Positions 345 through 23,791 of a DNA stretch of 64,000 nt are shown here, piece after piece. A program made the translations under genes and the position numbers. The notes beneath the pieces were generated by a model, which saw nothing but the letters and a program-made list of their open reading frames with translations, did not search any database and was not told the DNA's origin. How positions within the stretch are numbered: the stretch's first letter is position 1; each line of letters starts with the position of its first letter. This DNA is from Bartonella sp. CM31XJBT. GTDB lineage: Bacteria; Pseudomonadota; Alphaproteobacteria; Rhizobiales; Rhizobiaceae. Location of the stretch: assembly GCF_028618555.1 (NCBI RefSeq), contig NZ_JAQITD010000002.1, positions 1 through 64,000 on the forward strand, given 5' to 3'.

Positions 345-349
345 TGGTT

Positions 350-953: not shown

Positions 954-1100
954 ATGAAAACCTCTAAATTAAAACAAATGCCTGTTTTTAAGACGGATGA
1001 AGAAGCAGAAAACTTTGTTGATACTGCCGATCTTACGGATTATGATTTAACTGGTTTTAAACCCGTTCATTTTGAGTTCTTACCTAAAGAAGCCTCTTGA
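954..1100 (+). pseudogene. Truncated CopG/BrnA-type antitoxin stub
   Basis: 48-codon ORF. The segment FKTDEEAENFVDTADLTDYD followed by LTGFKPVHFEF is the N-terminal signature of the CopG-type antitoxin family that partners BrnT-like toxins. The family continues into a ribbon-helix-helix of about 30 residues, which is missing: the ORF stops right before a hairpin shared with the other cassettes. No toxin partner is adjacent. It may be a remnant of a second TA pair, or a short protein still made; the ribosome site is weak. Confidence 0.55.
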
Positions 1101-1103
1101 CCA

Positions 1104-1131
1104 CTCCCCATTTTAAGAACAGGGAGGGGAG
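1104..1131. terminator. GC-rich bidirectional terminator hairpin (cassette 1)
   Basis: CTCCCC at 1104-1109 pairs with GGGGAG at 1126-1131, followed by a T-rich stretch on the plus strand. It lies between convergent genes. Close relatives are at 11718, 13007 and 17197, always between a TA module and an antirepressor gene. Confidence 0.6.
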
Positions 1132-1144
1132 TTGTGTTTTTAAG

Positions 1145-1423
1145 TTAAGCAGCTTTTACAACAGGACTTTCCAAAGTAGGAGCATAAGCTTGCAATAACG
1201 GATTCATGCTATGCGGTAGTTCTGAAGTTCCAAAACCTGTAAGAACTGCTAGAATCTTTGTAATATTCGGCACTTCATCTTGAAGTTTTACAATCAAAGC
1301 TTTTTCTACCACCCCCATGATGTCAACCAGAGCACTACAATTTTTATCATCTACATATTCACAATTGACAAACTGAAACAACGTTATCCACAAATCGCAT
1401 AAGAAGTTAGTATCTACCTTCAT
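1145..1423 (-). CDS. Small phage protein translationally coupled to the Rha/KilAC antirepressor
   Basis: 92 residues from an ATG at 1423 that overlaps the stop of the upstream antirepressor gene (ATGA). No known domain recognised. The last residues, SPVVKAA, match the C-terminal tail of the AntA-type proteins at 11760, 13051 and 17234 (RSVVKAA or RSVTKAA), so the 3' end of the locus is shared among cassettes although the rest differs. A role as partner or modulator of the antirepressor is inferred from coupling only. Confidence 0.55.
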
Positions 1424-2148
1424 TGCACACCCCCAAAGATTTGTTCTCTCAAACATGCCAATCCTCTAGATGTGATTTTCGTTGAAGGCAGCACCTTTTC
1501 TGTTCCATCCGGTCTTTGAATGGTAATAGCAGGGCAATCCATGAATCCTTTCTTGATCTTATCCTGATAAGGTAACAATGGCGCCCCTGGAGCACGTCGA
1601 TACACCCAATCATTTTGTCGCAAGTAATCCGTTAAATCCTTAGGTCGTACTTCCAACATCTTCGCGGCTTCAATTAAACCAAACAAACCATCAGAGCGTT
1701 TTAGACCTTCCAAAGCCTCTGCTTTTGGTGCTAATTCAGCAATGGTGTTATCCTTTTGCTCAATTTGGTTTTGTAAATGTGTCAAAAAGCCAATCATTGC
1801 TTGAGGACTTGAGTAGTCTATCTGTGGAACAGCTACCTGCTTTTCCAACTTTTGCCAGCGGTCAATAATCTTTGCTCGTAAAGCAGTACTGTAACCAGAA
1901 ACAAGAATTAAACATTCGCGCTTAGGTAAGTTATAACAAGGGCGGCTTTCACCTTTTGCATCAACGTAAGTACCGATAAAATCAACCAATCCAAATTTGG
2001 AGCCGTTAAGTTCTTCAAGCATCTTCTTGATATCACGCATAATATGTGCGTGCTGCTTTTTACACAAATCAGCAATTTCACGACTAGACATAGTTTGATG
2101 GATAGCACTATTAGCAGTGTTTCCTTTAATTTCTATAAGAGTGTTCAT
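1420..2148 (-). CDS. Rha/KilAC phage antirepressor
   Basis: 242 residues with two modules. Residues about 15-105 are a Rha-type regulatory domain ([20 protein letters not shown], then [20 protein letters not shown]). Residues about 150-240 are a KilA-C domain ([45 protein letters not shown]). Such proteins bind DNA or repressor and influence lysogeny. A paralogue with the same architecture is at 23792. It is preceded by a family-A leader and a strong minus-strand promoter. Confidence 0.8.
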
Positions 2149-2184
2149 GATGAACTCCTATTGGTTAGACGTTTTTGATTGACA

Positions 2185-2395
2185 CTTTTATAAATAAAGT
2201 GCCGGGTGCTCAAAAACACGGCCAATAGTCCGTCGTTATGCTTTTCCCATCAAGAGTATTGTATAGCATAACCACACCCGACGAGATCATTATATGCGTG
2301 TAACATACAATGAGTCAAAGCCTTTAATGTGCGGAAAAGAGATTGTTTCGGCAATCTATCCGCTATTGGTTTAAGGTGTTTTTGAGGCACCTGAT
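2185..2395 (-). ncRNA. Structured leader RNA, family A, copy 1
   Basis: About 210 nt upstream of the Rha/KilAC gene, strongly conserved with copies at 12530 and 13680. Shared pairings: AGGTG/CACCT at the promoter-proximal end, GCGGA/TCCGC, GTTATGC/GCATAAC, and GCCG/CGGC with GGGTG/CACCC near the gene. One stem shows a compensatory change between copies 1 and 3. A leader that controls the downstream antirepressor, or an independent small RNA, is inferred. Genus-specific Bartonella RNAs upstream of DNA-binding protein genes (Brt RNAs) have been described; whether this is the same family cannot be decided here. Confidence 0.6.
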
Positions 2396-2398
2396 TCG

Positions 2399-2426
2399 AT
2401 TATTCATATTGTTGCCACAATGTCAA
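2399..2426 (-). promoter_or_regulatory. Promoter of family-A leader copy 1
   Basis: On the minus strand, TTGACA (2426-2421) and AATAAT (2404-2399) with a 16-nt spacer, immediately before the conserved leader. The same arrangement precedes copies 2 and 3. Confidence 0.55.
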
Positions 2427-2534
2427 TAAGTAATACTACTTTTTTCTAAATTATATAAGTACGTCTTTACTTTATTTGTCGACTCACTTTAAATTTCCCA
2501 CTTTACTTTCTTGTTTATAGCGGAGGGGGAGGTA

Positions 2535-3608
2535 ATGCTGGATACCCTTGATACAATTGCAATGATCGTATGTTTGTTATCATTGCCAGTGATGATTGTC
2601 GGACTTGTTTTAGTATGTATAAAGAAATGGCGGAAAAACGGACTGAAAACTCTTGGTATTGGAGCTTTATTATTTATCGGCTCTGCGATAGTAGGTGGTT
2701 TTGTATACAAAGATAAGTCAGATCAAGTTGCATACAATAATGAAATTGTTACCTCCTCCTCGACTTCCTCAATAGATGTTGCTACTCAAAACGAAAGCGT
2801 GTCTCAAGCACCAGCTGAGAATACCGATAAGCAAGTTACCCCCACTCAAGTTAACAAACCAGACAAAGATGATGGATTAGGCTTTTGGGGATGGTTTTGG
2901 TTAATTTTCTTTGCGTTTTTTGCGTTTTCCATTTTCGCTTATTGGCAAGATAAACGCAAAAAACGTTTTGAAGAGAAAGTTCCAGAACAGGCTTCAAGGT
3001 CGCTCCCTCCTGCACATCCTTCTTCTGATTTCTCAGTCGTTAATAAAACATCTCCAGCACTTAAAAAGGAACAACTGGAAAAGGGAATAAAGAGCTTTCT
3101 CCTTTGTGCTCTATTGATTGGAGGCATTGTAGCAATAATAAATGTTCCTTGGTTATTATTGCCTTTTCTTATTGTTTTACTTTGTGTTCTCATTGTTTAT
3201 CATGAAACAAAAAAGGAAAAAAGCTTTGAACAAGAAGTTGCGATGTTACAACCAGATATCCCTCCCTTTGATTTTTTTGAAGCATGTGAAATGTTTCAAG
3301 AGCTTGATGCGAGTGAGTATGATTATCGTTTAGCACGCAATGAAAAACTTTTGGGAGTTCAAGAAAATACCAGATTCATTGACGGTAGAAAGAACAAGTG
3401 GGATGGACGTCTTTTGGTAACAAATCAGGCTATTGTGTTTGAAAGCTCTGAAAAGAATGAACGAACCACTTGGACACGAATTGCATCAGTAGCTATAACA
3501 TATCAAGGATGCCAAATCAGTCGCCGTACCGGCGTACCATGGAATTATGAATTTACTGCTAATCCCGGATTTGCTGCAGTGGTTAGAGCTCTTGGGCGCC
3601 CTTATTGA
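2535..3608 (+). CDS. Multispanning membrane protein with C-terminal PH-like domain (prophage accessory gene)
   Basis: 357 residues from an ATG with an excellent ribosome site (GGGGGAGG). Two hydrophobic helices lie at the N-terminus (residues about 6-55), one near 118-140 and a hairpin pair near 185-225. A soluble C-terminal domain (LLVTNQAIVFESSEKNERTT, then WTRIASVAITYQG) resembles bacterial PH-like domains. It points opposite to the phage late genes and sits between head and tail genes, the usual position of a lysogenic conversion (moron) gene. A role in the host envelope or superinfection exclusion is inference. Confidence 0.6.
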   Translation: MLDTLDTIAMIVCLLSLPVMIVGLVLVCIKKWRKNGLKTLGIGALLFIGSAIVGGFVYKDKSDQVAYNNEIVTSSSTSSIDVATQNESVSQAPAENTDKQVTPTQVNKPDKDDGLGFWGWFWLIFFAFFAFSIFAYWQDKRKKRFEEKVPEQASRSLPPAHPSSDFSVVNKTSPALKKEQLEKGIKSFLLCALLIGGIVAIINVPWLLLPFLIVLLCVLIVYHETKKEKSFEQEVAMLQPDIPPFDFFEACEMFQELDASEYDYRLARNEKLLGVQENTRFIDGRKNKWDGRLLVTNQAIVFESSEKNERTTWTRIASVAITYQGCQISRRTGVPWNYEFTANPGFAAVVRALGRPY

Positions 3609-3641
3609 TTTTTAAGTAGTATATCGTATAAATGTACATCA

Positions 3642-3995
3642 CTATTTTATCTCCCGCAAGATAAGTTTATACATACCGGATTCTGAGGCTTGGACATCTG
3701 TGATCACGAAGTGCTCTTGAGAAGAGGGGGCTTTGTTGTTTTCAGGAGAAATGATTACAACACTATCTTGAGGGTTTGGTGGTATTCCCCCGATGTCATT
3801 GATACAAAGATCAAGTTCCTTTCTTGGAATTGTGGTGGGGATTCTGCCACCGGCGTCCGATTCTGAATGCTTAATGCCGTAAATCGCTGTGATACGAAAA
3901 GATTGCTGGCTGTCTTTTCGCGTGTAGATGATGGGCTGCCCAAAAGTGTTGCGTACATCTTTAACCATTTGGTTTAGCAGCCCGTGCCATCGCAT
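3642..3995 (-). CDS. Phage head-tail joining protein, gpFII-like
   Basis: 117 residues from an ATG at 3995, two bases after the capsid stop, with GGAG spaced 9 nt upstream. Small beta-rich protein (GKQ-type strands such as QSFRITAIYGIKH and SSQEHFVITDVQ) immediately downstream of the major capsid gene, where lambda-like phages encode FII/head completion proteins that connect head and tail. Assigned mostly by position and size. Confidence 0.5.
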   Translation of the reverse strand: MRWHGLLNQMVKDVRNTFGQPIIYTRKDSQQSFRITAIYGIKHSESDAGGRIPTTIPRKELDLCINDIGGIPPNPQDSVVIISPENNKAPSSQEHFVITDVQASESGMYKLILREIK

Positions 3996-3996
3996 G

Positions 3997-5073
3997 TTAT
4001 TTCGCTCCAATCACGGCTTTAAACAGCATTTCAGGGCGTGTGCAAATGTAAAGCGGATAGCTATAGACCTCCGGTTTTACCCATGCATTACGGTCGTGGT
4101 CGACGATAAGCATCGTGTAGAGAGGTCTTCCAACCGTGTTGGCAAAATCCAAGCTTTCACCAGGAGCAAAGGTTTTTTGGAAGACACCAGGCGCATCAAC
4201 AGGAAAGAATTGACATTCATCAGGCTTAATGCCTATGGCGCGCTTTGTTCCAGCCTTCGCACTCACATTATAGTTGTGAATACTCCGGTAATTAATGAAA
4301 GTCACACCCGCAAAGTCAAAACTACCAAAGCTCCCAGAGCCAATCGAACTTGGTGTTGCAACACCTCCGGCGCTATTGAGTGTCTGTGCTAAGGCTGTGT
4401 TTAAATAGGTCTCACGAATTGTTTTATGGTTTTTCAACTTGGAAAAGAATTCATTTCCACAAAGCCCAATAATGCGTGAACGATCAGAAAAAGCTCCCTT
4501 TGAAGCTTCAATCATCCTCATAATGACTTGATCAACATGGTCCGCAACATTGGTTGTCTCATTATTTAATTTAAAATCAATCGGCTTTGGTGGTGCGATT
4601 TCCCATTCTTTGTACCAATCGACAATTACGGAACCATCAGCATCAAGGACAACACCTTGAACAGCGCCAAGCTGCATATTTTCCCATGTCAATTCGATTT
4701 CAGAAATCAGTTTCTTTTGTTTTCTGGCAATATATTTCATTGCTGTCTCTAACTGATCTTCTGCGCCAAATTCACGACGGTTTTGGATTTCTTCTGATTT
4801 CACCGTATCACTTTTGGCAATCCGTGTTGTTTTGAAAAACCGAAGATTACGACCCTCTCTATCACCTTCTGTCAAAGGTGCGCCACGTTCACTGGTTTGA
4901 ATAAGCGAAAATGTATTATCACGCCGTTCAATCCCAACCACTGTGGTACTGGTTTCAACTTCTTCAAAGAGATTAAGAGAACTTACAAGACCAGGTTGAA
5001 ACTCATAGTTTTCGATGGCTTTCATCATTGTGATGCTTGAGAAAGCATCATGTTTAAAAAAGTTCATATCCAT
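3997..5073 (-). CDS. Phage major capsid protein, lambda gpE family
   Basis: 358 residues, usual length for the family. The start MDMNFFKHDAFSSITMMKAI, the segment VGIERRDNTFSLIQTSERG and the C-terminal YTMLIVDHDRNAWVKPEVYS fit the gpE-type HK97-fold capsid subunit that builds the icosahedral shell. It lies between the decoration protein and the head-tail joining gene in lambda order. Confidence 0.88.
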   Translation of the reverse strand: MDMNFFKHDAFSSITMMKAIENYEFQPGLVSSLNLFEEVETSTTVVGIERRDNTFSLIQTSERGAPLTEGDREGRNLRFFKTTRIAKSDTVKSEEIQNRREFGAEDQLETAMKYIARKQKKLISEIELTWENMQLGAVQGVVLDADGSVIVDWYKEWEIAPPKPIDFKLNNETTNVADHVDQVIMRMIEASKGAFSDRSRIIGLCGNEFFSKLKNHKTIRETYLNTALAQTLNSAGGVATPSSIGSGSFGSFDFAGVTFINYRSIHNYNVSAKAGTKRAIGIKPDECQFFPVDAPGVFQKTFAPGESLDFANTVGRPLYTMLIVDHDRNAWVKPEVYSYPLYICTRPEMLFKAVIGAK

Positions 5074-5085
5074 GTGCGCATTCTC

Positions 5086-5454
5086 CTATCGCAATAGAAT
5101 GTTGTTTTTGTCTTCTAAAGACTGAATGGCTGCTTTCTTTTTCTCATCCGTGATGGCATCTGGCCATAGCAGTTCAGAAGCTTTTACAGTGCATAAGCGT
5201 GCTGTAATCACAGCGCGTTGATCGGCGCCTGTTGCGTCAACAGTAGCAAAAGAAATCCCTGCCGGTGTTTGACTGCCATCTGTTGCTGCTGGATTAAGGG
5301 GGACATAGTATTCCGTTGTGGTTATCTTTCCCATGACAGTTCCCGCTTCAATGAATGCTCCTGATGCAAACACCACTTCTTCGTTTGACATATCGGGGTC
5401 GTAGGGTCCAAGATAAGCGCCATTGCGTACGTCGTCATAAATAATATTCGTCAT
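5086..5454 (-). CDS. Head decoration protein, lambda gpD-like
   Basis: 122 residues from the ATG at 5454, which overlaps the stop of the upstream gene (ATGA). The pattern GTVMGKITTTEYYVPLNPAA followed by VITARLCTVKASELLWP is typical of HDPD proteins that stabilise the expanded capsid. Located directly before the major capsid gene. Confidence 0.82.
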   Translation of the reverse strand: MTNIIYDDVRNGAYLGPYDPDMSNEEVVFASGAFIEAGTVMGKITTTEYYVPLNPAATDGSQTPAGISFATVDATGADQRAVITARLCTVKASELLWPDAITDEKKKAAIQSLEDKNNILLR

Positions 5455-5891
5455 TTCACTGCCCTCCAAGCTGCTTCCCATTTTGTATGAATCTTTGCCT
5501 TGCTCGTCCCATCACTATGAGGGGTATAAGGCGAGACTTTTAAAGACGCGCTTTGAGAGCTAGCAGCCGTCAACACACACTGGCGTGCTTTCTCGATACT
5601 CATACCTTTTTGAATAGCTTTTGCTGCGTCAAAAGAAACGCCTAAGTGCTTTGCTTGCCTTTCAAGGGTTGTTAGTGCTTTTGCGCGCTTTCTTTCTTTT
5701 TCAAGAGCAGCTTTTATGTTTTCCTGCTTGTCTTCGTTGTCTTCATCCTCATCTTCGTTTTCTTCTTCATCGTCGAAGTCTTCGGCGTTTTTGTCGATGT
5801 CGCTATCGCCTTCGTCCTCTTCCTCGTCATTGATGATGTCGACGATCTTTTCGTCATCATCTTCTTCAGCGCGGTATTGTGTGCGTGCCAT
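5451..5891 (-). CDS. Acidic scaffold-like protein nested out of frame in the protease gene
   Basis: 146 residues. The first 55 are extremely acidic (runs of D and E), followed by a helical part (AALEKERKRAKALTTLERQA) and a C-terminal tail seen at the end of many S49-type capsid proteases. It has its own ATG with AAGGA about 8 nt upstream. It overlaps the 3' end of the protease gene by 178 nt in another frame. In lambda the scaffold Nu3 is nested in frame inside gene C; here the frames differ, so either independent initiation, programmed frameshifting or an indel separates the two parts. Confidence 0.7.
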   Translation of the reverse strand: MARTQYRAEEDDDEKIVDIINDEEEDEGDSDIDKNAEDFDDEEENEDEDEDNEDKQENIKAALEKERKRAKALTTLERQAKHLGVSFDAAKAIQKGMSIEKARQCVLTAASSQSASLKVSPYTPHSDGTSKAKIHTKWEAAWRAVK

Positions 5892-6787
5892 GTGTTTTGT
5901 CCTTCTTTTTCTGTTGATGTTGGGTTTTGTGATATGGAATCCGTTAAGGCTTCCAAAGCTTGCGCAAGGGTGCCTTGCGCATCTGCTAATCCAAGCGTGA
6001 TCGCTTGGGTGCCTATAAAAGTTTCTGCTTTTGTGTCACGAATTGCAGCAGCATTTAAGCGTCTGTTTTGCGCCACCAAATCGACAAACATCTCGTAGAG
6101 CAGGGCGCAATCGGTTTGCATTTTTATCTGTGCTGTATCGCTCAAGGGTTCGTGAGGGTTGCCATGGGTTTTGTGATCACCTTCAAAGACAAAGGTCCAT
6201 TTATACCCGTGTTTTTCATCTGCACGGGACTGGTCAAGATGAGCACAAACAACTCCAATCGAGCCTACAACACCCGTGCGAGCAACCCATATTTGAGAAG
6301 CAGAACAAGCAATGGCATAAGCTGCAGAACAGGCAAACTCATTGGCATGTGCCCAAATGGGTTTATTGTATTGTTTTGAGAGTGTTTGAAACTCTTCAAC
6401 CAAATCAAACACACCACCGGCTTCTCCACCGCCGCTGTCAATATCAAGTAAGACAGCACGAACATCAGGTTGTGCAATGGCTTCACGAAAAGAAGCGCTT
6501 AAACCTTCATAAGAGGTTAGCCCCGATAAAGCCCCAAGCCATGCACCACGGCGCACAAGCGTGCCATGAACCGGTAGGATAGCAACATTGTTTTGTACTA
6601 CATAAGTTTCAGGGGGTCTTAAAGCCGTTGTATCCCCTTGCGCAAAAGCCCCAGGGGCAAACTTTTCTCCCTCAAAAAGACGCGGTGCAAGAGCATTCAA
6701 AATGACATCAAGTTTTGTCGAGGCAAGCATATGTGGAACCCCAAAAAGCCGTGATGCCAAGAACGGCATATCAAGATTATTCACCAT
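5714..6787 (-). CDS. Capsid maturation protease, S49/SppA family (lambda gpC-like)
   Basis: 357 residues from the ATG at 6787, overlapping the portal stop. S49 features are clear: VRAVLLDIDSGGGEAGGVFD, then the nucleophile region ANEFACSAAYAIACSA and the lysine-bearing segment with GVVGSIGVVCAHLDQ. It processes the portal or scaffold during head assembly. The last about 60 residues are a lysine/threonine-rich tail that is simply the alternate-frame reading of the acidic scaffold sequence, so the functional protein probably ends or shifts frame near 5891. Confidence 0.82.
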   Translation of the reverse strand: MVNNLDMPFLASRLFGVPHMLASTKLDVILNALAPRLFEGEKFAPGAFAQGDTTALRPPETYVVQNNVAILPVHGTLVRRGAWLGALSGLTSYEGLSASFREAIAQPDVRAVLLDIDSGGGEAGGVFDLVEEFQTLSKQYNKPIWAHANEFACSAAYAIACSASQIWVARTGVVGSIGVVCAHLDQSRADEKHGYKWTFVFEGDHKTHGNPHEPLSDTAQIKMQTDCALLYEMFVDLVAQNRRLNAAAIRDTKAETFIGTQAITLGLADAQGTLAQALEALTDSISQNPTSTEKEGQNTWHAHNTALKKMMTKRSSTSSMTRKRTKAIATSTKTPKTSTMKKKTKMRMKTTKTSRKT

Positions 6788-8569: not shown

Positions 8570-8572
8570 AAA

Positions 8573-11075: not shown

Positions 11076-11109
11076 AGTTGCTCCATTTTGAATGGTATAT
11101 ACGAATTAT

Positions 11110-11153
11110 TGTACACTTTAATTATTGACAAGGTTTTATTTTTCGTGTACATA
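11110..11153 (+). promoter_or_regulatory. brnTA promoter with flanking TGTACAC/GTGTACA operator
   Basis: TTGACA at 11125-11130, 17-nt spacer, TACATA at 11148-11153. The promoter is bracketed by a perfect 7-bp inverted repeat, TGTACAC at 11110-11116 and GTGTACA at 11145-11151, the second overlapping the -10. BrnA antitoxins repress their own operon, so this is a plausible BrnA operator. The same hexamer TGTACA occurs four times at 12798-12858. Confidence 0.55.
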
Positions 11154-11159
11154 AAATAT

Positions 11160-11426
11160 ATGAAGATAGTGTGGGATGAACCAAAAAGAGCTTTAAACAT
11201 TGTTAAACATAAGCTTGATTTTGCTGATGTTATTTACTTTGACTGGGAACATGCTCTTATTGATGCAACACATTCAAACCGCATGAAGGCTATTGGACAT
11301 TTTGCGAATGGCACAACAGTTATTGTTTTTGCAAAGCTTGGCAATGAAGCGATATCCATTATCAGTTTTCGTCAAGCGAATAAAAAAGAAAGAGAGGTTT
11401 TCAATGACTATCAAAAAAACCTTTGA
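11160..11426 (+). CDS. brnT: BrnT-family toxin
   Basis: 88 residues from the ATG at 11160. The start MKIVWDEPKRALNIVKHKLD and the end IISFRQANKKEREVF are diagnostic for BrnT ribonuclease toxins. The upstream in-frame ATG at 11088 would cover the promoter and is rejected. The gene overlaps brnA by 23 nt. Confidence 0.88.
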   Translation: MKIVWDEPKRALNIVKHKLDFADVIYFDWEHALIDATHSNRMKAIGHFANGTTVIVFAKLGNEAISIISFRQANKKEREVFNDYQKNL

Positions 11427-11709
11427 AGCAGGATGTGATTATACAAAAGAAGATTGGGACGCTGTGGATTCCCCACCACTAACAGATGAAGAACTTGCAC
11501 GCTTAAAGCCAGCTAAAGATGTTTTACCACCTTCCTTTTTTAAATATGTAACAGAAGAACGCCGTAAACGTGGGCGTCCACCCGTTGAATCTCCCAAACA
11601 AGCGGTTACTCTACGCCTTGACCCAAACGTTATTGCTTCTTTTAAAAAACAAGGAAAAGACTGGCGAACACGTATGGGTGAAGTCTTAAAAAAAGCAAGT
11701 GGCAGCTAA
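11404..11709 (+). CDS. brnA: BrnA-family antitoxin
   Basis: 101 residues. The C-terminal ribbon-helix-helix (KQAVTLRLDPNVIASFKKQG, then WRTRMGEVLKKA) is the BrnA DNA-binding and dimerisation part; the acidic N-terminal part binds the toxin. The start lies inside brnT, giving coupled translation. Confidence 0.85.
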   Translation: MTIKKTFEAGCDYTKEDWDAVDSPPLTDEELARLKPAKDVLPPSFFKYVTEERRKRGRPPVESPKQAVTLRLDPNVIASFKKQGKDWRTRMGEVLKKASGS

Positions 11710-11717
11710 ACCAACCA

Positions 11718-11742
11718 CCTCCCCATTTTGAGAACGGGGAGG
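11718..11742. terminator. Bidirectional terminator hairpin (cassette 2)
   Basis: CCTCCCC at 11718-11724 pairs with GGGGAGG at 11736-11742 (7 bp). It separates brnA from the convergent antirepressor gene. Confidence 0.65.
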
Positions 11743-11759
11743 GGAGATGTGTTTTAAAT

Positions 11760-12272
11760 CTAAGCAGCTTTTACGACAGATCTTGCTAAAACGCGCTTAG
11801 CTTCTTTTGTAACTGATTTGTAATGATCAAGCTCTTTTTCGAGGTCATTTGCATCCAACAAACGCCTCATCATCAATCCTAAGATTTCTCCAATACCTGC
11901 AGGTTTTTTAAAACACTCATAAGAAAATAATTCATAATCAACAGCTTGGTTTCTCAGTTTCTTCTCACACTCAATAAAGTAACGGCGTGCTTGACGTCCT
12001 TTCTCGTTACGTTCAACCATGGAAAGCTCTTTTGCCATGTCTAAAGTGAGATGGTACTCTGTACTTGGACGACCGCCTTGGAGGTTTTCGCCAAAATTGG
12101 TGAAAACTATATAATCCTGATTTTTGAGAAAGCTGTATTTGTTAATACGGTCTTTAATCCAATTGGAAAAGTCTCGTTTTACTTCCAAAAACACATGTAA
12201 TTCACGCGCATTAACGGTTTGAATAATTTCTTGTCCAACAGCTTGTTCTGATATTTTAATTAGAGTGTTCAT
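11760..12272 (-). CDS. AntA/AntB-type antirepressor, paralogue 1
   Basis: 170 residues. The N-terminal domain (VNARELHVFLEVKRDFSNWI) and the core STEYHLTLDMAKELSMVERN plus KGRQARRYFIECEKKLRNQ define the AntA/AntB family that inactivates phage repressors. The C-terminal tail RVLARSVVKAA is shared with paralogues at 13051 and 17234, but the middle of the C-terminal part differs. Preceded by a family-B leader. An internal palindrome lies at 12084-12107. Confidence 0.82.
   Translation of the reverse strand: MNTLIKISEQAVGQEIIQTVNARELHVFLEVKRDFSNWIKDRINKYSFLKNQDYIVFTNFGENLQGGRPSTEYHLTLDMAKELSMVERNEKGRQARRYFIECEKKLRNQAVDYELFSYECFKKPAGIGEILGLMMRRLLDANDLEKELDHYKSVTKEAKRVLARSVVKAA
12084..12107. repeat. 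24-nt intragenic palindrome in antA paralogue 1
   Basis: Arms of 11 nt (GTTTTCGCCAA and TTGGTGAAAAC) around a 2-nt centre, 10 of 11 positions paired. It lies just before the GGRPSTEYH segment, the same place as in the other AntA genes. Confidence 0.6.
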
Positions 12273-12466
12273 CTTATTAGTCCTTTGTTTTATAAGTTAA
12301 AGTATCCAGGGCTAAAACAACCGAACTAATACAGCCCTTCGTATCTTTAGGTTACCCTTGGACATACACACGAAGACCCTGGACAAAAATTCTTATGATG
12401 GGCAACAGATCTTTCGGGATACTGTTGAACCGATTAGTTACGAGGTGTTTTAAGCCTGCCAATCAG
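12273..12466 (-). ncRNA. Structured leader RNA, family B, copy 1
   Basis: About 190 nt between promoter and antA paralogue 1. It is nearly identical to the leader at 17783-17973. Conserved pairings include GTCCAGGG with CCCTGGAT and a hairpin around the CATACACACGAAG segment; ACCTAAAG and CCGAAAGATCTGTTGCC are invariant. The leader probably controls expression of the antirepressor. Confidence 0.55.
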
Positions 12467-12493
12467 ACTATAGCTGTTCACAGAAACTGTCAA
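12467..12493 (-). promoter_or_regulatory. Promoter of family-B leader copy 1
   Basis: Minus strand TTGACA (12493-12488) and TATAGT (12472-12467) with a 15-nt spacer. Confidence 0.5.
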
Positions 12494-12529
12494 TTATTTT
12501 TTGAAAAATCCTAAAAGTATTGACGTCCT

Positions 12530-12734
12530 AAGAGGATGCCGGGTGCTAGAAAACACGGCACATAGCCCGTCGTTATGCTTTCCCCACAAGGGTATTGTAT
12601 AGCATAACTACACCCGACAAAGTTATTATATGCGCCTAACATACAATGAGTCAAAGTCTTTAATGTGCGGAAGACTGATTATTTCGGCAACCAATCCGCT
12701 ATGTGTTTAAGGTGTTTTCTAGGCACCTGATTCG
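12530..12734 (-). ncRNA. Structured leader RNA, family A, copy 2
   Basis: Copy of the family-A element, here upstream of a family-B leader rather than directly before a gene. It keeps the AGGTG/CACCT hairpin, GCGGA/TCCGC, GTTATGC/GCATAAC and the terminal GCCGGGTG region. Because no ORF follows before the next promoter, this copy favours an independent small RNA or a vestige of a lost antirepressor gene. Confidence 0.55.
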
Positions 12735-12762
12735 AAAATAGACATTGACGCAACAATGTCAA
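12735..12762 (-). promoter_or_regulatory. Promoter of family-A leader copy 2
   Basis: Minus strand TTGACA (12762-12757), 16-nt spacer, TATTTT (12740-12735). Confidence 0.5.
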
Positions 12763-12797
12763 GAATAAAAATAATTTTTATCTAAAAATAATCACAT

Positions 12798-12858
12798 ACT
12801 GTACAGTGTACATATTGAAATTGTTATTTATCAATGTGTTGTGTGTACAATGTACAGT
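12798..12858. repeat. Paired TGTACA operator-like inverted repeat without an adjacent gene
   Basis: Arms of 15 nt at 12798-12812 and 12844-12858, 14 of 15 complementary, each holding two TGTACA-type hexamers, with a 31-bp spacer. It resembles a doubled version of the operator flanking the brnTA promoter. No TA gene follows; the next elements are a hairpin and an antirepressor, as in complete cassettes. Confidence 0.6.
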
Positions 12859-12877
12859 CAAATTGAAAATTCTGTCG

Positions 12878-12979
12878 CTAGCGATAGTTCGCGCTCGTCC
12901 GCCCCGCAACAGACCCAACCCGCTGGGAAGTACCTTTTGCATTGATTTTATTGTATTTTTTCTGGAAAAAGCGAAGCAT
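12878..12979 (-). CDS. Possible 33-residue basic peptide
   Basis: ATG at 12979 with AAAGGAG about 10 nt upstream. The product (MLRFFQKKYNKINAKGTSQR then VGSVAGRTSANYR) is basic. The local sequence is more GC-rich than its surroundings. No family recognised. It occupies the position where a TA module stands in the other cassettes but is on the opposite strand. Confidence 0.3.
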   Translation of the reverse strand: MLRFFQKKYNKINAKGTSQRVGSVAGRTSANYR

Positions 12980-13006
12980 TATCGATAATCTCCTTTGAAT
13001 TAATAT

Positions 13007-13031
13007 CCTCCCCACTTTGCAAGCAGGGAAG
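13007..13031. terminator. Terminator-like hairpin (cassette 3)
   Basis: CTCCCC near 13008 pairs imperfectly with the GGGAAG near 13026 (one G-U). Weaker than its relatives at 11718 and 17197 but in the same relative position. Confidence 0.45.
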
Positions 13032-13050
13032 ATGAGATCATATTTTAAAT

Positions 13051-13641
13051 TTAAGCAGCTTTTGTGACAGATCTAGCTAACACCTGTTTTGCTTCTTTAA
13101 TGAGGGCTTTATATTTTCTGTTCTCTTCATCTACTCTGAAGGCATCAAGAAGACGCATATGAATAGGACCTAAAAGATATAAAACTTTTTCGCCAGCGTT
13201 CATACCTTCCCAATAACTTGGCAAATCAAAGCGCGTATCACGATCATAATCAACAGATTGGTTTCTCAGTTTCTTTTCACACTCAATAAAGTAACGGCGT
13301 GCTTGACGTCCTTTCTCGTTACGTTCCACCATTGAGAGCTCTTTCGCCATGTCTAAAGTGATGTGATATTCTGTACTTGGACGACCGCCTTTAGGTTTTA
13401 CTCTTTTTTGAGTAAAACTCACAAAGTCCTGATTTTCTTGGGAGGCATTGGGTTTCGCTAAAATTTTAGCGAAACTTATAAAGTCCTTATTTTCTAGGAA
13501 GCCGTATTCTTTAATACGGTTTTTTATCCAATCTCTAAAATTAGAATTGACTTCCAAAAATGTATATAATTCGCGTGCGTTGACGGCTTGAACTGTTTCT
13601 TGATCAATCGTTTGTTCTGTAATTTTAATAAGAGTGTTCAT
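13051..13641 (-). CDS. AntA/AntB-type antirepressor, paralogue 2
   Basis: 196 residues, the longest of the set. The AntA N-terminal domain (VNARELYTFLEVNSNFRDWI) and the core STEYHITLDMAKELSMVERN are present. The linker is duplicated: KDFISFAKILAKPNASQ is followed by NQDFVSFTQKRVKPKGG, each carrying its own palindrome. From KGRQARRYFIECEKKLRNQS to the end it is almost identical to the paralogue at 17234, while the N-terminal half differs. Family-A leader upstream. Confidence 0.82.
   Translation of the reverse strand: MNTLIKITEQTIDQETVQAVNARELYTFLEVNSNFRDWIKNRIKEYGFLENKDFISFAKILAKPNASQENQDFVSFTQKRVKPKGGRPSTEYHITLDMAKELSMVERNEKGRQARRYFIECEKKLRNQSVDYDRDTRFDLPSYWEGMNAGEKVLYLLGPIHMRLLDAFRVDEENRKYKALIKEAKQVLARSVTKAA
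13395..13418. repeat. 24-nt intragenic hairpin in antA paralogue 2 (distal copy)
   Basis: Perfect 9-bp stem GTTTTACTC/GAGTAAAAC with a TTTTTT loop, in the GGRPSTEYH-proximal linker unit. Confidence 0.6.
13452..13475. repeat. 24-nt perfect palindrome in antA paralogue 2 (proximal copy)
   Basis: Fully self-complementary over 24 bp (half-site GTTTCGCTAAAA), encoding the SFAKILAKP part of the duplicated linker. Confidence 0.65.
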
Positions 13642-13679
13642 AATGAACTCCTATGCAGTTAAAGGTTTTCTATTGACAC

Positions 13680-13890
13680 TCCACAAAGAATGCCGGGTGC
13701 TAGAAAACACGGTGCATAGTCCGTCGTCACGCTTTTCCCATAAAGGGTATTGTATAGCGTAACTACACCCGACAGATCTATTATACGCATGTAGCATATA
13801 ATGAGTCAAAGCCTTTAGTATGCGGAAAATAAACTGTTTCGGCAATCTATCCGCTATGCATCTAAGGTGTTTTCTAGGCACCTAATTTAA
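13680..13890 (-). ncRNA. Structured leader RNA, family A, copy 3
   Basis: About 210 nt upstream of antA paralogue 2. In the central stem the pair that is T-A in copy 1 (GTTATGC/GCATAAC) is C-G here (GTCACGC/GCGTAAC), a compensatory change that supports RNA pairing. The same AGGTG/CACCT and GCGGA/TCCGC stems are kept. Confidence 0.6.
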
Positions 13891-13891
13891 C

Positions 13892-13919
13892 GATATACGT
13901 TTTCCGTGAATCTTGTCAA
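13892..13919 (-). promoter_or_regulatory. Promoter of family-A leader copy 3
   Basis: Minus strand TTGACA (13919-13914), 16-nt spacer, TATATC (13897-13892). Confidence 0.55.
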
Positions 13920-13964
13920 GAAAGAAAATCTCAGTGTATAGCAAACATAGCTTGAGAACATGAT

Positions 13965-14543
13965 CTAGCCTTTCTTATTAGCAGCGTATTCTTGACGAGA
14001 AAGTTGTCTCTGTATGTTTTTGGTTAATCTTTCATTGGCATATTGTGCAATAGCACTAGCAATCTCTGGCTTGGACATCACTTTAGCAATTGATGGTCCT
14101 TCTTGTTTTGCAATAGGGAATTGATCTCCATCCGCTCTTTGAAACACATTCCCTCCCATTTTTAAATCAACACGCTTTGGAAAACTGCCTCCCTTGATAA
14201 AAGCATGGGGTAAGATTTCTTTCTTTCCAAACAGTGTGTAAGTTACGCCGCGTTTTGTTTCGTTTACTTTAAAAAATTTAAGAGGTATTGGTGTTCCAGA
14301 ACCAATGATATCTGTCTCAAGAAACCTTGCTGTCGCCTTTTCTTTAATATAAACACCTCTTCTTATACGCTTTATTTGGGCTGATGAGATGTCTGCAACT
14401 TGCTTTTCAGTAAAGCGTTCAACTTGTTTTGCTGCAGTGTTTAGAGCATTACGCAGAGCCCAATTAAGGCGTGGTGCTTGAAGACTGGTGAAGGTATCCT
14501 TCACCTGTTGAAGATACCATTTTTGGTGGATGATTAACTTCAA
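13965..14543 (-). CDS. Phage minor tail protein, gpZ-like
   Basis: 192 residues. The pattern LNWALRNALNTAAKQVERFT near the N-terminus, then the basic region IRRGVYIKEKATARF and KVNETKRGVTYTLFGKKEI fits the gpZ/minor tail family that joins tail to head. It lies upstream of the terminase genes, far from the gpU-like gene at 1, so the tail genes are split by the head operon relative to lambda order. Confidence 0.68.
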   Translation of the reverse strand: MKLIIHQKWYLQQVKDTFTSLQAPRLNWALRNALNTAAKQVERFTEKQVADISSAQIKRIRRGVYIKEKATARFLETDIIGSGTPIPLKFFKVNETKRGVTYTLFGKKEILPHAFIKGGSFPKRVDLKMGGNVFQRADGDQFPIAKQEGPSIAKVMSKPEIASAIAQYANERLTKNIQRQLSRQEYAANKKG

Positions 14544-14546
14544 CTT

Positions 14547-14903
14547 CTAAGCCTTTTTTGGGGTAGGTGACTTGGAAGCTTTAGATGCTTTTGGCTGTTC
14601 GAGTGGAATTTCCTCTGTCACTGGTTCAGACGATGTTTGTACGGCTTCTTGTTCTATCTGTTTAATTTGTTCAATTGCCTTATCTGTTTTTGCTGTTGTC
14701 TTGACGTCAACAAAAAGTTTTGCAGCATTGGCGCGCTTGAGACGTGCGTAGACTTGATTAGAAACTTCAACAAATGGATTATTGGGTGTTGATGGTTCAA
14801 AGCGAACAGTGCTTTTATTGTCTCCAACAACACACATTGGCTTAGTGATGACAGCTTTCATCATTGCTCCTTTTGCGTCATAATTAATGACATCATTAGT
14901 CAA
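14547..14903 (-). CDS. Phage protein with lysine/alanine-rich tail, unknown
   Basis: 118 residues, ending 3 nt before gpZ, so probably cotranscribed with it. Residues about 15-75 (VVGDNKSTVRFEPSTPNNPF, then VEVSNQVYARLKRANAAKLF) look like a small structural fold; the last 50 residues are a low-complexity charged tail (PKASKASKSPTPKKA). Possibly a head-tail connector-type protein by position; function not recognised. Confidence 0.55.
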   Translation of the reverse strand: MTNDVINYDAKGAMMKAVITKPMCVVGDNKSTVRFEPSTPNNPFVEVSNQVYARLKRANAAKLFVDVKTTAKTDKAIEQIKQIEQEAVQTSSEPVTEEIPLEQPKASKASKSPTPKKA

Positions 14904-15188
14904 TTATTGATTTTTGTTATTTGAAAAATAGATTAGTCAGAATTACCCAGAAAACAGGGCTTTCTAGCCACGTTTCAAGATCACATTTTACTAAATTTTT
15001 AGAGGATATTTTTGAATTTTGGACGCAATTCGACCAGTACAGCAGCGTCATTAAATACGACTTTTCACATATTGTCAACAAAAAAATCAATATATTGTGT
15101 TTTTTTTATTTTTTTACCTAAATATGCTGCTTTACAAACAAATGATGCAAATATTCCGTTCCCAAAAATCGTTTATACGTTAAAGCAT

Positions 15189-15737
15189 TTACCATTTATT
15201 TTTTGGATAAAAATACTTCTGGAGAGCATTTAGAGCAATACGCAAAGAACTAACAAGATGTGGTAATGTTTGGTTTTCTATAACAAGATGTTGTATCGCG
15301 GCATAAAGATTATACTGTCTATAGAGGTGTTGTGCTTCTTTGATAGCCTCTTGCATGTTTGAAAACTGTTCTGTTGCAAATTTAATCCATTTTTCTTTTG
15401 CTGTCTCATCAGAAGATGAGGGCATTTTATCATAAACAGCACTTGGCAAACCTTTTGCACACGAATAGTCATTTTTCACTTCAAGATATTTTTGCGCAGC
15501 ATCATATTGGTCTTGATTTATTTCGCCTTGCAAATAAAGCCGCCCGATATAGGTGCCGGAAAGCGGATTTTTAGCCTCTTCTATGGTCAAGTCAAAGCGT
15601 TTGGCACGCATTTCAATTGCCAATTTATCCATGGGTTCATGCGGTGTTTTTGCTCGTGAGATACGTCCATTTGGTTCTCTGATACATCCTTTAATCCGTG
15701 GACGACCGCGTTTTGCACGTTTTTTTCTTTTTGTCAT
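15189..15737 (-). CDS. Phage protein with basic N-terminus, unknown
   Basis: 182 residues. The N-terminus KRKKRAKRGRPRIKG resembles an AT-hook-like or terminase-small-like basic arm; the rest is helical (YLQGEINQDQYDAAQKYLEV, EQFSNMQEAIKEAQHLYRQY). It lies 11 nt from ssb on the same strand. DNA binding is inferred from the basic arm only. Confidence 0.5.
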   Translation of the reverse strand: MTKRKKRAKRGRPRIKGCIREPNGRISRAKTPHEPMDKLAIEMRAKRFDLTIEEAKNPLSGTYIGRLYLQGEINQDQYDAAQKYLEVKNDYSCAKGLPSAVYDKMPSSSDETAKEKWIKFATEQFSNMQEAIKEAQHLYRQYNLYAAIQHLVIENQTLPHLVSSLRIALNALQKYFYPKNKW

Positions 15738-15748
15738 ATTTTTTTCAA

Positions 15749-16204
15749 TCAGAATGGTATGCTATCATTATTAATGAGTGCACTATGATCAGCAGCCCCT
15801 GAAGCGATAGCATAATTTTGAGAAGTAATAGGTGAAGGGGTAGGGGATGCCGATTGATCTTTTTTGGCATCAAGCAAATACAACTCGCCTTTGAATTGTG
15901 GTAAGACAATCTCTGTTGTATAACGGTCATGCCCATTTTTATCTTGCCATTTGCGTGTCTGTAATTTGCCTTCTACGTAAACCTTTGAACCTTTGTTTAG
16001 ATATTGAAGTGCAATTTTTGCTAAATGCGGATTAAAAATCACAACTGAATGCCATTCTGTTTTCTCTACTTTTTGATTGGTTTTTTTATCTGTATAGCTC
16101 TCAGAAGTCGCTATACTAAAATTGACTATTTCTGCTCCAGAATTCATTGTTTTGCTTTCGGGATCAGCACCAAGGCGCCCGATTAACGTCACTTTATTTA
16201 GCAT
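15749..16204 (-). CDS. ssb: Single-stranded DNA-binding protein
   Basis: 151 residues. OB-fold starts MLNKVTLIGRLGADPESKTM, continues with TEWHSVVIFNPHLAKIALQY and GSKVYVEGKLQTRKWQDKNG, and ends in the acidic tip NDSIPF typical of SSB. Prophage copy, likely used with the ERF/YqaJ recombination genes. A SPTPSP linker lies before the tip. Confidence 0.93.
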   Translation of the reverse strand: MLNKVTLIGRLGADPESKTMNSGAEIVNFSIATSESYTDKKTNQKVEKTEWHSVVIFNPHLAKIALQYLNKGSKVYVEGKLQTRKWQDKNGHDRYTTEIVLPQFKGELYLLDAKKDQSASPTPSPITSQNYAIASGAADHSALINNDSIPF

Positions 16205-16422
16205 ATTTGTAGCCCCATTAGATTTGCAATTTATACATGAAAAATCTTAGCATAATTTGCATATTTATTCAATTATTTCAGTTTATTAATAACAGTTTTT
16301 TAAGTATTACATTATAATATTATTTGACAAATTATTCATCAAAAAAACATGTCACACAAATGGCATGGCTTTCTTATTTCTGCTTTTAACTTTTCAATAA
16401 ATATCCTTTCATTAAGAGTCTG

Positions 16423-16478
16423 TATCAAACTTTTTTGTTCGATTTATTGTTGACTATCGAACCTTTTTGTGCGATATT
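16423..16478 (+). promoter_or_regulatory. hicAB promoter with tandem 21-bp palindromic operators
   Basis: TTGACT at 16450-16455, 17-nt spacer, GATATT at 16473-16478. Two 21-bp repeats (16423-16443 and 16455-16475, 18 of 21 identical, 32 bp apart) each have the form ATCRAAC-N6/7-GTKCGAT, an inverted repeat. The second covers the core promoter, the right place for HicB autorepression. Confidence 0.55.
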
Positions 16479-16504
16479 CATTTTATGAAAAAAGGGGAGG
16501 CTAA

Positions 16505-16696
16505 ATGAAACGAGAAGCACTGCTTAGAGAATTACGTAAAGAAGCCAGAAAAAGAGGCATTCATTACAGTGAAGCTCCTGATGCAGGCAAAGGGTCACAT
16601 TATTTGGTAACTTTTGGAGACAAGACAACCGTTATAAAATCTGGTGAATTGACCCCACTTTACGTGAAAATAATAAAAAAGCAGTTGGGGGTATGA
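16505..16696 (+). CDS. hicA: HicA-like toxin, second pair
   Basis: 63 residues, normal HicA size. The GKGSHYLVTFGDKTTVIKSG segment holds the catalytic-type histidine. Ribosome site AGGGGAGG sits just before the ATG. hicB follows after 67 nt, an unusually wide gap for the pair. Confidence 0.85.
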   Translation: MKREALLRELRKEARKRGIHYSEAPDAGKGSHYLVTFGDKTTVIKSGELTPLYVKIIKKQLGV

Positions 16697-16763
16697 GTTA
16701 CTCTCTCAACGGCTTTAATTTTTCGTTTCAAAAGCATTTTGATCATGGCGAGGAGACCTAAAC

Positions 16764-17192
16764 ATGGAATACACGTATCAAGCAAAACTGGAATCTGATC
16801 CAGATGGTGGTTTTATTGTAACCTTTCCAGATGTACCAGAAGCAATAACAGCTGGAGAAAATAGAGCAGAGGCATTAGAGAATGCTGTTGAAGCTTTAGG
16901 GTTAGCATTACGGAGCTATCCTATGCGTGGTTTGCCTTTACCAATGCGACAACAGTATAAAGACCTTGTAGAGGTTACGGTAGATGCGTGGAATGCTCTT
17001 AAGCTCGCAGTGGTAGAAGCCTTTAATGAAGCGAATATCACAAAAACAGAATTGGCACATCGTTTGGGTAAAAAAGAAACAGAAGCAAGACGCATTCTTG
17101 ATCCAAATTATCCAACTAAGCTTCAAACACTAGAGCAAGCACTGAGTGTTCTTGGCAAGCAAGTCGTTATTACAATCAAAAACGCGGCTTAA
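16764..17192 (+). CDS. hicB: HicB-like antitoxin with C-terminal helix-turn-helix
   Basis: 142 residues. The N-terminal HicB domain (KLESDPDGGFIVTFPDVPEA, AGENRAEALENAVEALGLAL) is followed by an XRE-type HTH (FNEANITKTELAHRLGKKET). It neutralises HicA and should bind the tandem palindromes upstream. Differs from the RHH-type HicB at 594, so the two TA modules were acquired independently. Confidence 0.85.
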   Translation: MEYTYQAKLESDPDGGFIVTFPDVPEAITAGENRAEALENAVEALGLALRSYPMRGLPLPMRQQYKDLVEVTVDAWNALKLAVVEAFNEANITKTELAHRLGKKETEARRILDPNYPTKLQTLEQALSVLGKQVVITIKNAA

Positions 17193-17196
17193 CTTC

Positions 17197-17219
17197 CTCC
17201 CCACTTTTAAAATGGGGAG
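17197..17219. terminator. Bidirectional terminator hairpin (cassette 4)
   Basis: CTCCCCA (17197-17203) and TGGGGAG (17213-17219) form a perfect 7-bp stem with a 9-nt loop; a T-rich tail follows on the plus strand. Confidence 0.7.
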
Positions 17220-17233
17220 TTATGTTTTTAAAT

Positions 17234-17782
17234 CTAAGCAGCTTTTACGACAGATCTTGCTAGAACCTGTTTTGCTTCTTTAATAAGGGCTTTGTATTTT
17301 CTGTTCTCTTCATCTACTCTGAAAGCATCAAGAAGACGCATATGAATTGGACCAAGAAGATACAAAACTTTTTCACCAGCGTTCATTCCCTCCCAATAGC
17401 TTGGCAAATCAAAACGGGTATCACGATCATAATCAACAGATTGGTTTCTCAGTTTCTTCTCACACTCAATAAAGTAACGACGTGCTTGACGTCCTTTCTC
17501 ATTGCGTTCAACCATTGAGAGCTCTTTTGCCATGTCTAGAGTGAGATGATATTCTATTGCTGTAACAGCTCTAGATTTTGCGCTTCCCAATTTTGGGAAC
17601 CGCAAATCTTGTGTTTTTATGAAGTCTTTACCTTCTTCAAATGTATATTGATTAATACGATCCGTAATCCAAGTAGCGAAACGTTTTCCTATTTCCATGA
17701 ATGCGTGTAACTCACGCGCATTGACCGTTTGCACAATTTCTTGTTCAATAATTTTTTCTGATATTTTAATAAGAGTGTTCAT
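17234..17782 (-). CDS. AntA/AntB-type antirepressor, paralogue 3
   Basis: 182 residues. The N-terminal domain (VNARELHAFMEIGKRFATWI) and core (IEYHLTLDMAKELSMVERNE) define AntA/AntB. The C-terminal half is almost identical to paralogue 2 (13051), indicating recent recombination or gene conversion. Family-B leader upstream; internal palindrome at 17580-17603. Confidence 0.82.
   Translation of the reverse strand: MNTLIKISEKIIEQEIVQTVNARELHAFMEIGKRFATWITDRINQYTFEEGKDFIKTQDLRFPKLGSAKSRAVTAIEYHLTLDMAKELSMVERNEKGRQARRYFIECEKKLRNQSVDYDRDTRFDLPSYWEGMNAGEKVLYLLGPIHMRLLDAFRVDEENRKYKALIKEAKQVLARSVVKAA
17580..17603. repeat. 24-nt intragenic palindrome in antA paralogue 3
   Basis: Arms GCGCTTCCCAA and TTGGGAACCGC around a TT centre, 10 of 11 paired, encoding the RFPKLGSAK linker. 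Confidence 0.6.
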
Positions 17783-17973
17783 AATATTGGTTCCTTTGTT
17801 TTAAAAGTTTAAGTATCCAGGGCTAAAACAACCGAACCAATTCAGTCCTTCACATCTTTAGGTTACCCTTGGACATACATGTGAAGACCCTGGACAAAAT
17901 TTCTTATGATGGGCAACAGATCTTTCGGGATACTATTGAACCGATTGGTTACAGGTGTTTTAAGCCTGCTTCG
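17783..17973 (-). ncRNA. Structured leader RNA, family B, copy 2
   Basis: Nearly identical over its length to 12273-12466, including the TCCAGGG/CCCTGGA pairing. Differences cluster in loops and near the ribosome site. Confidence 0.55.
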
Positions 17974-17974
17974 T

Positions 17975-18002
17975 AACCTAATGGCTTTTAAAAATTTGTC
18001 AA
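17975..18002 (-). promoter_or_regulatory. Promoter of family-B leader copy 2
   Basis: Minus strand TTGACA (18002-17997), 16-nt spacer, TAGGTT (17980-17975). Confidence 0.4.
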
Positions 18003-18019
18003 GTTGTTCCTGATATGAG

Positions 18020-23780: not shown

Positions 23781-23791
23781 TTAAGGGGGTG

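Follow-up and report, generated by a model that had tools for sequence, protein, structure and literature searches.

In phages P1 and P7, RNase P releases the C4 RNA from a precursor (PMC5320573); this RNA carries two segments complementary to the ant mRNA around its ribosome-binding site, with a specificity that differs between phages (heteroimmunity; PMC5320573, PMC12197685). IsrK at anrP of Gifsy-1 and sar at ant of P22 are further small RNAs that act on antirepressor synthesis or on its operon (PMC12197685), and in Bartonella henselae the Brt RNAs, repeated structured leaders of 194-203 nucleotides (nt), stand before the Trp genes, which encode XRE proteins (PMC5387305). The small RNA (sRNA) sRNA-Xcc1, Rfam family RF02221, has been described as trans-acting and integron-borne, with predicted distant targets. 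We analysed a stretch of 64,000 nt from Bartonella sp. CM31XJBT (NZ_JAQITD010000002.1, positions 1 to 64,000; hereafter the window), which is the left part of a 161.5-kb contig. Its first 27 kb look like a prophage from the reading of their open reading frames (ORFs), and they hold four cassettes in which a slot for toxin-antitoxin (TA) genes, a hairpin, a convergent antirepressor gene and a structured leader follow one another. We regard it as quite probable that the leader exerts C4-like antisense control over the antirepressor, and that the TA modules are exchangeable cargo placed convergently behind it.

The original prediction had named these four cassettes, and their elements were found at about the predicted positions. 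Cassette A has HicAB and a CopG stub, the hairpin and a Rha-ANT antirepressor; cassette B has BrnTA, the hairpin and AntA; cassette C has no TA gene, its slot being empty, followed by the hairpin and AntA; and cassette D has HicAB, the hairpin and AntA. A shared KAA end of the antirepressors was confirmed for B, C and D, while that of A ends in GGVQ, with KAA on a separate ORF, and has Rha and ANT domains and no AntA domain. The single conserved leader that had been proposed gave way to two types, namely RF02221 at A and C (type 1) and a different leader at B and D (type 2). The HicA partners of A and D had no supporting Pfam or NCBIfam match, and a relative of the HicB-like antitoxin of D scores 27.8 bits, just above the PF15919 cut-off of 27. 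The features are as follows (E, expectation value).

332-604, plus strand: HicA-like small ORF of cassette A, named by its position next to HicB; no Pfam or NCBIfam match
594-911, plus strand: HicB antitoxin of cassette A (PF05534, E 1.6e-16)
954-1100, plus strand: CopG_antitoxin stub (PF12441, E 6.7e-11, profile positions 1-43 of 79)
1103-1132, no strand: junction hairpin A (repeat D7; stem)
1145-1456, minus strand: small KAA-ended ORF of 103 amino acids behind antirepressor A; no family match
1420-2148, minus strand: Rha plus ANT antirepressor A, ending in GGVQ (PF09669, E 2.5e-18; PF03374, E 2.7e-21)
2156-2178, minus strand: segments s (Shine-Dalgarno, SD) and u, the targets at antirepressor A, with complements at 2222-2228 and 2210-2217
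2193-2282, minus strand: sRNA-Xcc1 leader RNA A (RF02221, 40.4 bits, under the gathering score of 53)
2289-2318, minus strand: promoter-like site of sRNA A, TTGACT-18-TATAAT, read from the sequence
11160-11426, plus strand: BrnT toxin of cassette B (PF04365, E 1.6e-15)
11404-11709, plus strand: BrnA antitoxin of cassette B (PF14384, E 2.4e-22)
11718-11742, no strand: junction hairpin B (repeat/stem)
11760-12272, minus strand: AntA antirepressor B with KAA end (PF08346, E 1.1e-28, 100 bits against a cut-off of 27)
12281-12441, minus strand: type-2 leader B, 92% identical to that of D, with a segment complementary to the SD
12529-12619, minus strand: orphan sRNA-Xcc1, lacking its own gene and followed by the type-2 leader (RF02221, 55.1 bits, over the gathering score of 53)
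12625-12654, minus strand: promoter-like site of the orphan sRNA, TTGACT-18-TATAAT (11 of 12 matches)
12735-12762, minus strand: upstream TTGACA promoter-like site (sequence pattern)
12800-12856, no strand: four-TGTACA element (the 'orphan operator'), upstream of the leader; recurs in the genus
13004-13034, no strand: junction hairpin C, with no adjoining TA gene (repeat/stem)
13051-13641, minus strand: AntA antirepressor C with KAA end (PF08346, E 9.1e-30, 103.5 bits against a cut-off of 27)
13683-13774, minus strand: sRNA-Xcc1 leader RNA C (RF02221, 48.3 bits, under the gathering score of 53)
13780-13809, minus strand: promoter-like site of sRNA C, TTGACT-18-TATAAT (11 of 12 matches)
16505-16696, plus strand: HicA-like small ORF of cassette D, named by position; weak DUF3801 match only
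16764-17192, plus strand: HicB-like antitoxin of cassette D (HicB_lk, PF15919, E 1e-5, 26.1 bits against a cut-off of 27)
17198-17219, no strand: junction hairpin D (repeat D8)
17234-17782, minus strand: AntA antirepressor D with KAA end (PF08346, E 4.8e-25, 88.4 bits against a cut-off of 27)
17792-17952, minus strand: type-2 leader D (repeat D5), with ATTGGTTC against the SD GGAACCAAT, read by eye

The type-1 leader RNA folds into a closed stem (P1) with two hairpins, and the three copies in the window all cover RF02221 model positions 1-87. Two of its segments vary together with the antirepressor start region. The first is the loop of hairpin P3 (CTATTGG in A), which is complementary to the SD (CCAATAG of CCAATAGGAG), and the second is an unpaired GTTT... 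stretch, whose complement lies about 20 nt upstream of the SD. For a wider view, AntA was found in 49 of 71 genomes of the genus, with up to 15 matches per genome, and our sample comprised 117 stretches around the AntA matches listed, 3 around sRNA copies of the same genome as the window (the own genome), and the first 26 kb of the window, with ORFs called mechanically throughout. In these loci, which were chosen for AntA, the nearest same-strand gene within 600 nt was AntA for 135 of 153 type-1 hits and for all seven type-2 hits. Among the 88 leaders used out of 127 unique ones, loop and SD paired perfectly over 7 nt at a fixed site in 86, and the other two scored 6.5 and 3. These leaders held 24 distinct loop-SD pair types, 22 of which were perfect over the 5 variable positions, whereas 10,000 shuffles averaged 0.99 and never gave more than 6. 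From locus to locus the pair changes in sequence and remains complementary, so there are many specificities.

Covariation was evaluated in an alignment of 48 of 50 selected leaders, with 5 SD-side and 8 upstream pairs counted and 500 shuffles as the comparison. Every cell of the two antisense helices was paired (100%), and 3 of the 5 SD-side pairs and 3 of the 8 upstream pairs had changed on both sides; sliding the whole structure reduced pairing to 36-51%, and the covariation score was 0.274 versus 0.111 in the shuffled sets. The percentage paired, the number of cells with a both-sided change and the covariation score all lay above the 500 shuffles. The own genome has 11 RF02221 copies with at least 9 different loops, and by reading, 9 of the 10 gene-bearing copies pair with their own start site, L047 doing so only partly. 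In sRNAs A and C folded by themselves both segments stay essentially unpaired, and in the orphan the loop is partly closed; the minimum-energy fold of the long RNA of A pairs both segments to the start region. Across Pseudomonadota, RF02221 matched 55 of 398 genomes searched (own genome included) at E 1e-4, with 40 above the cut-off. At 30 loci fetched outside Bartonella the ORFs downstream were mixed, some of them antirepressor-like by eye. At 18 of these 30 loci the hairpin-2 region had at least 7 contiguous bases complementary to the next 110 nt, compared to 15% on average and at most 38% in shuffled pairings, and by eye these stretches mostly lay just upstream of the start codon.

In 93 of 143 leaders the P1 stem is preceded, at a distance of 5-7 nt, by the end of a TTGACT-18-TATAAT-like site, while promoter-like sites overall were no commoner than in shuffles (23 vs 20.0). 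The leader had been credited with its own TTGACA promoter; TTGACA boxes are indeed present, only farther upstream, and the best promoter-like site is the TTGACT-18-TATAAT directly before the sRNA. The position of this site at the base of P1 suggests that the 5' end of the RNA is not made by RNase P. On the basis of the sequence covariation we propose a C4-like antisense role for the leader, which would regulate antirepressor translation with many specificities; repression, processing and action in trans are inferred. In this mechanism a near-consensus promoter, placed at the 5' base of the closing stem, would give rise to a short RNA. Either this RNA or the same segment within the full-length transcript would pair with the start region and leave the antirepressor untranslated in the lysogen. 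Loss of the RNA, or a mismatch with it, would then permit antirepressor synthesis and lead to induction.

As in the C4 system (P1/P7, RF01695), a structured RNA lies upstream of an antirepressor gene, two of its segments are complementary to the antirepressor start region including the ribosome-binding site (found here in type 1 and read by eye in two type-2 variants), and the specificity differs between phages. Unlike in C4, where RNase P makes the cut, transcription of the short RNA seems to begin at a separate promoter beside the P1 stem, many specificities occur within one genus, and a TA slot lies behind the gene. The Brt RNAs, likened here by description, share the repeated structured leader before a DNA-binding-protein gene in the same genus, although the downstream gene there encodes an XRE protein and here AntA or Rha. 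IsrK-anrP and sar-ant, also compared by description, differ in their RNAs and geometry from the leader studied here. With the described sRNA-Xcc1 the leader shares the covariance model, the orphan scoring above the gathering score and the two leader copies below it, but its complementarity is to the SD of the next gene. The word antirepressor is absent from the text of one paper that names sRNA-Xcc1 (PMC12189769), and the best-matching papers of a combined literature search, which covered open-licence literature and counts as weak evidence, did not name sRNA-Xcc1. If our reading is right, RF02221, which has been treated as trans-acting with distant and even host targets, gains a testable target in the SD of the next gene, and C4-type antisense immunity may extend beyond the C4 family.

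Behind the antirepressors, neighbour gene clusters were annotated with Pfam and NCBIfam, and family profiles were then built for counting. The count is based on 158 AntA genes of at least 140 amino acids with 1.5 kb on both sides (26 of 184 were dropped at edges), which correspond to 154 distinct AntA proteins, 72 of them with a TA; loci from related species are not independent of each other. Within 1.5 kb, a convergent TA was found on the 3' side of 74 of the 158 genes (67 without Fic and lone CopG) and, for the same families, on the 5' side of none. Same-strand TAs numbered 14 on the 3' side and 4 on the 5' side, with Phd/YefM found on the same strand only. The convergent types were HigA (TIGR02607)/HigB, HI1420/Gp49 (TIGR02684/TIGR02683), BrnTA, HicB, HicB_lk, RelB/YafQ, MazE-like/PemK and CopG, in addition to Fic, the last of which matches SoFic. 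This bears out the proposed modular exchange of TA genes at one fixed site, with eight TA types and Fic on the convergent 3' side and at least one such AntA gene in 32 of 43 genomes, and within Bartonella TA modules and antirepressors stand together more often than expected. Approached from the TA side, with 30 loci listed per search, a convergent antirepressor-type gene lay behind BrnA in 19 and behind HicB in 17; in front, there were none for BrnA, none for HicB and 3, on the same strand, for HigB.

TAs of several families are found convergent at the 3' end across the hairpin, and they differ between near-identical antirepressor ends. Among 159 junction pairs that agree on the antirepressor side to at least 88% over 200 nt, 131 had no TA-side similarity: neither side had a detected TA in 55, one side alone had one in 65, and 11 carried different TA types. 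Three pairs, each within one genome, illustrate this: L049/L050 carry HigA and RelB, and L106/L107 carry HI1420 and YafQ, both with 300 identical bases on the antirepressor side, and L103/L104 carry Fic and HigA with an antirepressor side at 93%. The reverse, alike TAs at different antirepressor ends, was seen in 6 pairs, 4 of which were HI1420 modules, up to 96% identical, that adjoin an AntA-KAA end at one locus and a GVQ end with the small ORF at the other. Most of the 12 pairs drawn lost their identity at or inside the hairpin block. Identical antirepressor ends with different TAs thus support exchange at a fixed junction; an antirepressor side homogenised by gene conversion would look alike, and the junction appears as a recombination boundary either way. 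Prophages in one cell could exchange TAs through homologous recombination at their repeated antirepressor-end/hairpin blocks, and these TAs would be cargo that stabilises or defends the prophage and not a part of the switch.

Prophage moron or cargo sites are places where accessory genes beside a terminator are exchanged between prophages. Unlike at such sites, here several TA types occur at the 3' end of one repeated gene type, and repeatedly per genome. Among the papers listed for Bartonella, antirepressors, prophages and TAs (open-licence only, again weak evidence), titles and abstract openings contained no report of a TA slot behind antirepressors. A repeated slot that exchanges TA modules of several families would offer a natural setting to ask what prophage TAs do.

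As for the hairpin itself, behind the stop of 42 KAA-tailed AntA ORFs, including fragments of 50 and 57 amino acids, we read a stem of the CTCCCC/GGGGAG kind, and a stricter script pattern recognised 27 of the 42. Stem sequences vary (e.g., CTCGTC/GACGAG), and that of genome G002 is quite different. Over 68 junctions the median stem score was 12 versus 8 for shuffled sequences, and 2 of the 68 exceeded the best shuffled score. Its best reading is a putative terminator that serves the TA side at some of the loci only. The cassette plan as a whole goes beyond chance in TA position and in leader complementarity, with the hairpin alone being weaker.

Several results weigh against this reading of the leader and the slot. 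The 39 excluded leaders comprised 31 off the parsing pattern and 8 in which our rule found no SD (4 were orphans that precede a type-2 leader, 3 were truncated and 1 did not follow the pattern), and the 88 parsed ones are not mutually independent. Two of the five covariation measures fell within the shuffles (9 pairs with both-sided change vs 8.1; 29 further pair types vs 32.3), and within-genome loop diversity was not above chance, with 7 same-loop pairs against 5.9 expected. The Rfam C4 model matched none of the 71 genus genomes at E 0.01, although control genomes gave no match either and absence is therefore not demonstrated, and 12 of the 30 loci outside Bartonella lacked complementarity. 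A T run followed the junction stem in the TA direction at 30 of 68 junctions and in the antirepressor direction at 5 of 68, so that a two-way terminator is not apparent. The slot is not universal: by C-terminal type of AntA, 47 of 54 GVQ genes have a TA, compared to 13 of 36 KAA, none of 26 MH and 14 of 42 other genes. From the TA side, only 2 of the 30 listed HigB loci had a convergent antirepressor-type gene behind them. Because the counted TA families had initially been chosen from the 3' side, neighbour clusters were also scanned without preselection (the commonest 75 of 93 on the 5' side and 75 of 86 on the 3' side, with the first 25 of 32 and 46 families listed), and this placed TA families on both sides of AntA. 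TAs traced on the 5' side were rare and all same-strand (HigA, HigB, YafQ and MazE-like once each, PemK twice), and two 5'-side clusters outside the profiles, HicA_toxin and HigB_toxin, were convergent once each; neither family was held by 20 other clusters rescanned. The 5' total of convergent TAs is therefore none for the modelled families and 2 with the unpreselected clusters added, versus 74 on the 3' side.

The alternative that survives best, which we still consider rather unlikely, is a functional coupling in which TA derepression alters antirepressor output and so wires stress to induction, by read-through antisense transcription over the junction, antitoxin binding near the leader, or a toxin RNase acting on the leader RNA. 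The convergent orientation and the high occupancy behind GVQ-tailed antirepressors agree with it, and read-through is possible, as fewer than half of the hairpins have a T run on the TA side. A further point in its favour comes from the 57-bp element with four TGTACA boxes, whose half-sites (GTGTACA) and spacing resemble those of BrnTA promoters. This element occurs at 19 places in 15 of the 71 genus genomes, with none for a reversed control pattern, and 8 of its 11 copies in the fetched stretches (cluster 37) adjoin a same-strand type-1 leader. It had been taken for an orphan operator left by a lost TA module, an idea that we reject since the element recurs beside antirepressor leaders. Copies near HigB loci in genomes G022 and G070 indicate that it is not specific to BrnTA, and a shared operator would be unexpected among the antitoxins of eight TA types plus Fic in one slot. 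Moreover, 84 of the 158 AntA genes lack any convergent TA from the modelled families over 1.5 kb. Cargo beside a gene probably under antisense control is our preferred explanation. A CI operator as the source of the element was also considered and discarded, there being no TGTACA at 22060-22240 between the two repressor-like genes.

An inherited neighbourhood within one prophage family, devoid of modular meaning, would likewise place TAs and antirepressors together, and the relatedness of the species sampled is in keeping with it. Outside Bartonella, 32 AntA loci (a single Arsenophonus assembly supplied 14, and in four fewer than 700 nt followed the gene) yielded 26 convergent ORFs, none of which belonged to a TA family, from which the TA slot looks lineage-specific. 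Inheritance alone hardly fits different TA types at near-identical antirepressor ends, or an arrangement present at three places in the window with three TA types, and we hold this explanation to be improbable. Least credible of all is an incidental SD match, with the leader acting in trans, as sRNA-Xcc1 is described to do, or being a riboswitch-like element of the sort proposed for the Bartonella Brt RNAs. In its favour, the title of Chen et al. 2011 calls sRNA-Xcc1 trans-acting, Xylella homologues have been given predicted bacterial and plant targets, and an orphan copy is present in the window. Against it, the cis match to the SD is exact and covarying in nearly all parsed loci, and complementarity recurs at most of the outside loci; a trans role could coexist with this cis match.

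The orphan sRNA sits directly upstream of the type-2 leader of B, and this tandem is found in 4 of the 7 type-2 loci (the window copy and L091, L140 and L096). A pattern search with up to 3 mismatches, in which partial pairing was not searched, found no matching start site for it in the own genome, and its tag fits antirepressors of other Bartonella. The type-2 leaders repeat the SD complementarity in two variants read by eye, ATTGGTTC/GGAACCAAT and TATTAGTTC/GGACTAATA. They had no Rfam match of note: a miRNA-named match that covers the SD-masking hairpin was dismissed as far below gathering, and C4 was not among the matches, nor did the C4 model match window 12200-12900 or 17750-18020 at E up to 10. 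The idea that loops are mutually exclusive within a genome was also set aside; loop and second segment together were the same in 0 pairs against 1.6 expected (fraction 0.19, identical leaders merged beforehand). A more speculative extension, which we put forward tentatively and hold doubtful, is that RF02221 forms another C4-like class among phage antisense RNAs, widespread and with the P3 loop as a variable specificity tag for its cognate SD, that Bartonella genomes carry sets of such tags, that gene-less copies such as the one at 12529-12619 act in trans as immunity RNAs against incoming prophages, and that the same repeated ends let TAs shuttle from prophage to prophage.

Other features of these regions are recorded here. 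At one locus of the own genome (L041, contig C28), the gene behind an RF02221 RNA is of the KKYQLTN/RIKALRDF type and not an antirepressor, and the loop of the RNA still fits the SD of this gene; proteins similar to this type are at 24536-25317 of the window. A second antirepressor-type pair occupies 23418-24523 in the early region, with an AntA-like ORF above the cut-off at 23418-23780 and a Rha/ANT-like one, assigned by eye, at 23768-24523. The KAA-ended ORF of 103 amino acids at 1145-1456, for which family searches including Pfam and NCBIfam gave nothing, recurs behind GVQ antirepressors and forms a cluster (cluster 4) of 30 members in the fetched loci. A HATPase_c protein of 684 amino acids lies convergent at the 3' side of some KAA antirepressors (L156, 3906-5960, with 684-amino-acid ORFs also in L089, L143 and L160); as a known defence gene it had no PADLOC match. 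Among the 75 neighbour clusters scanned on each side of AntA, one on the 5' side matches Enterotoxin_a (PF01375) and one on the 3' side matches the YopJ acetyltransferase family (PF03421).

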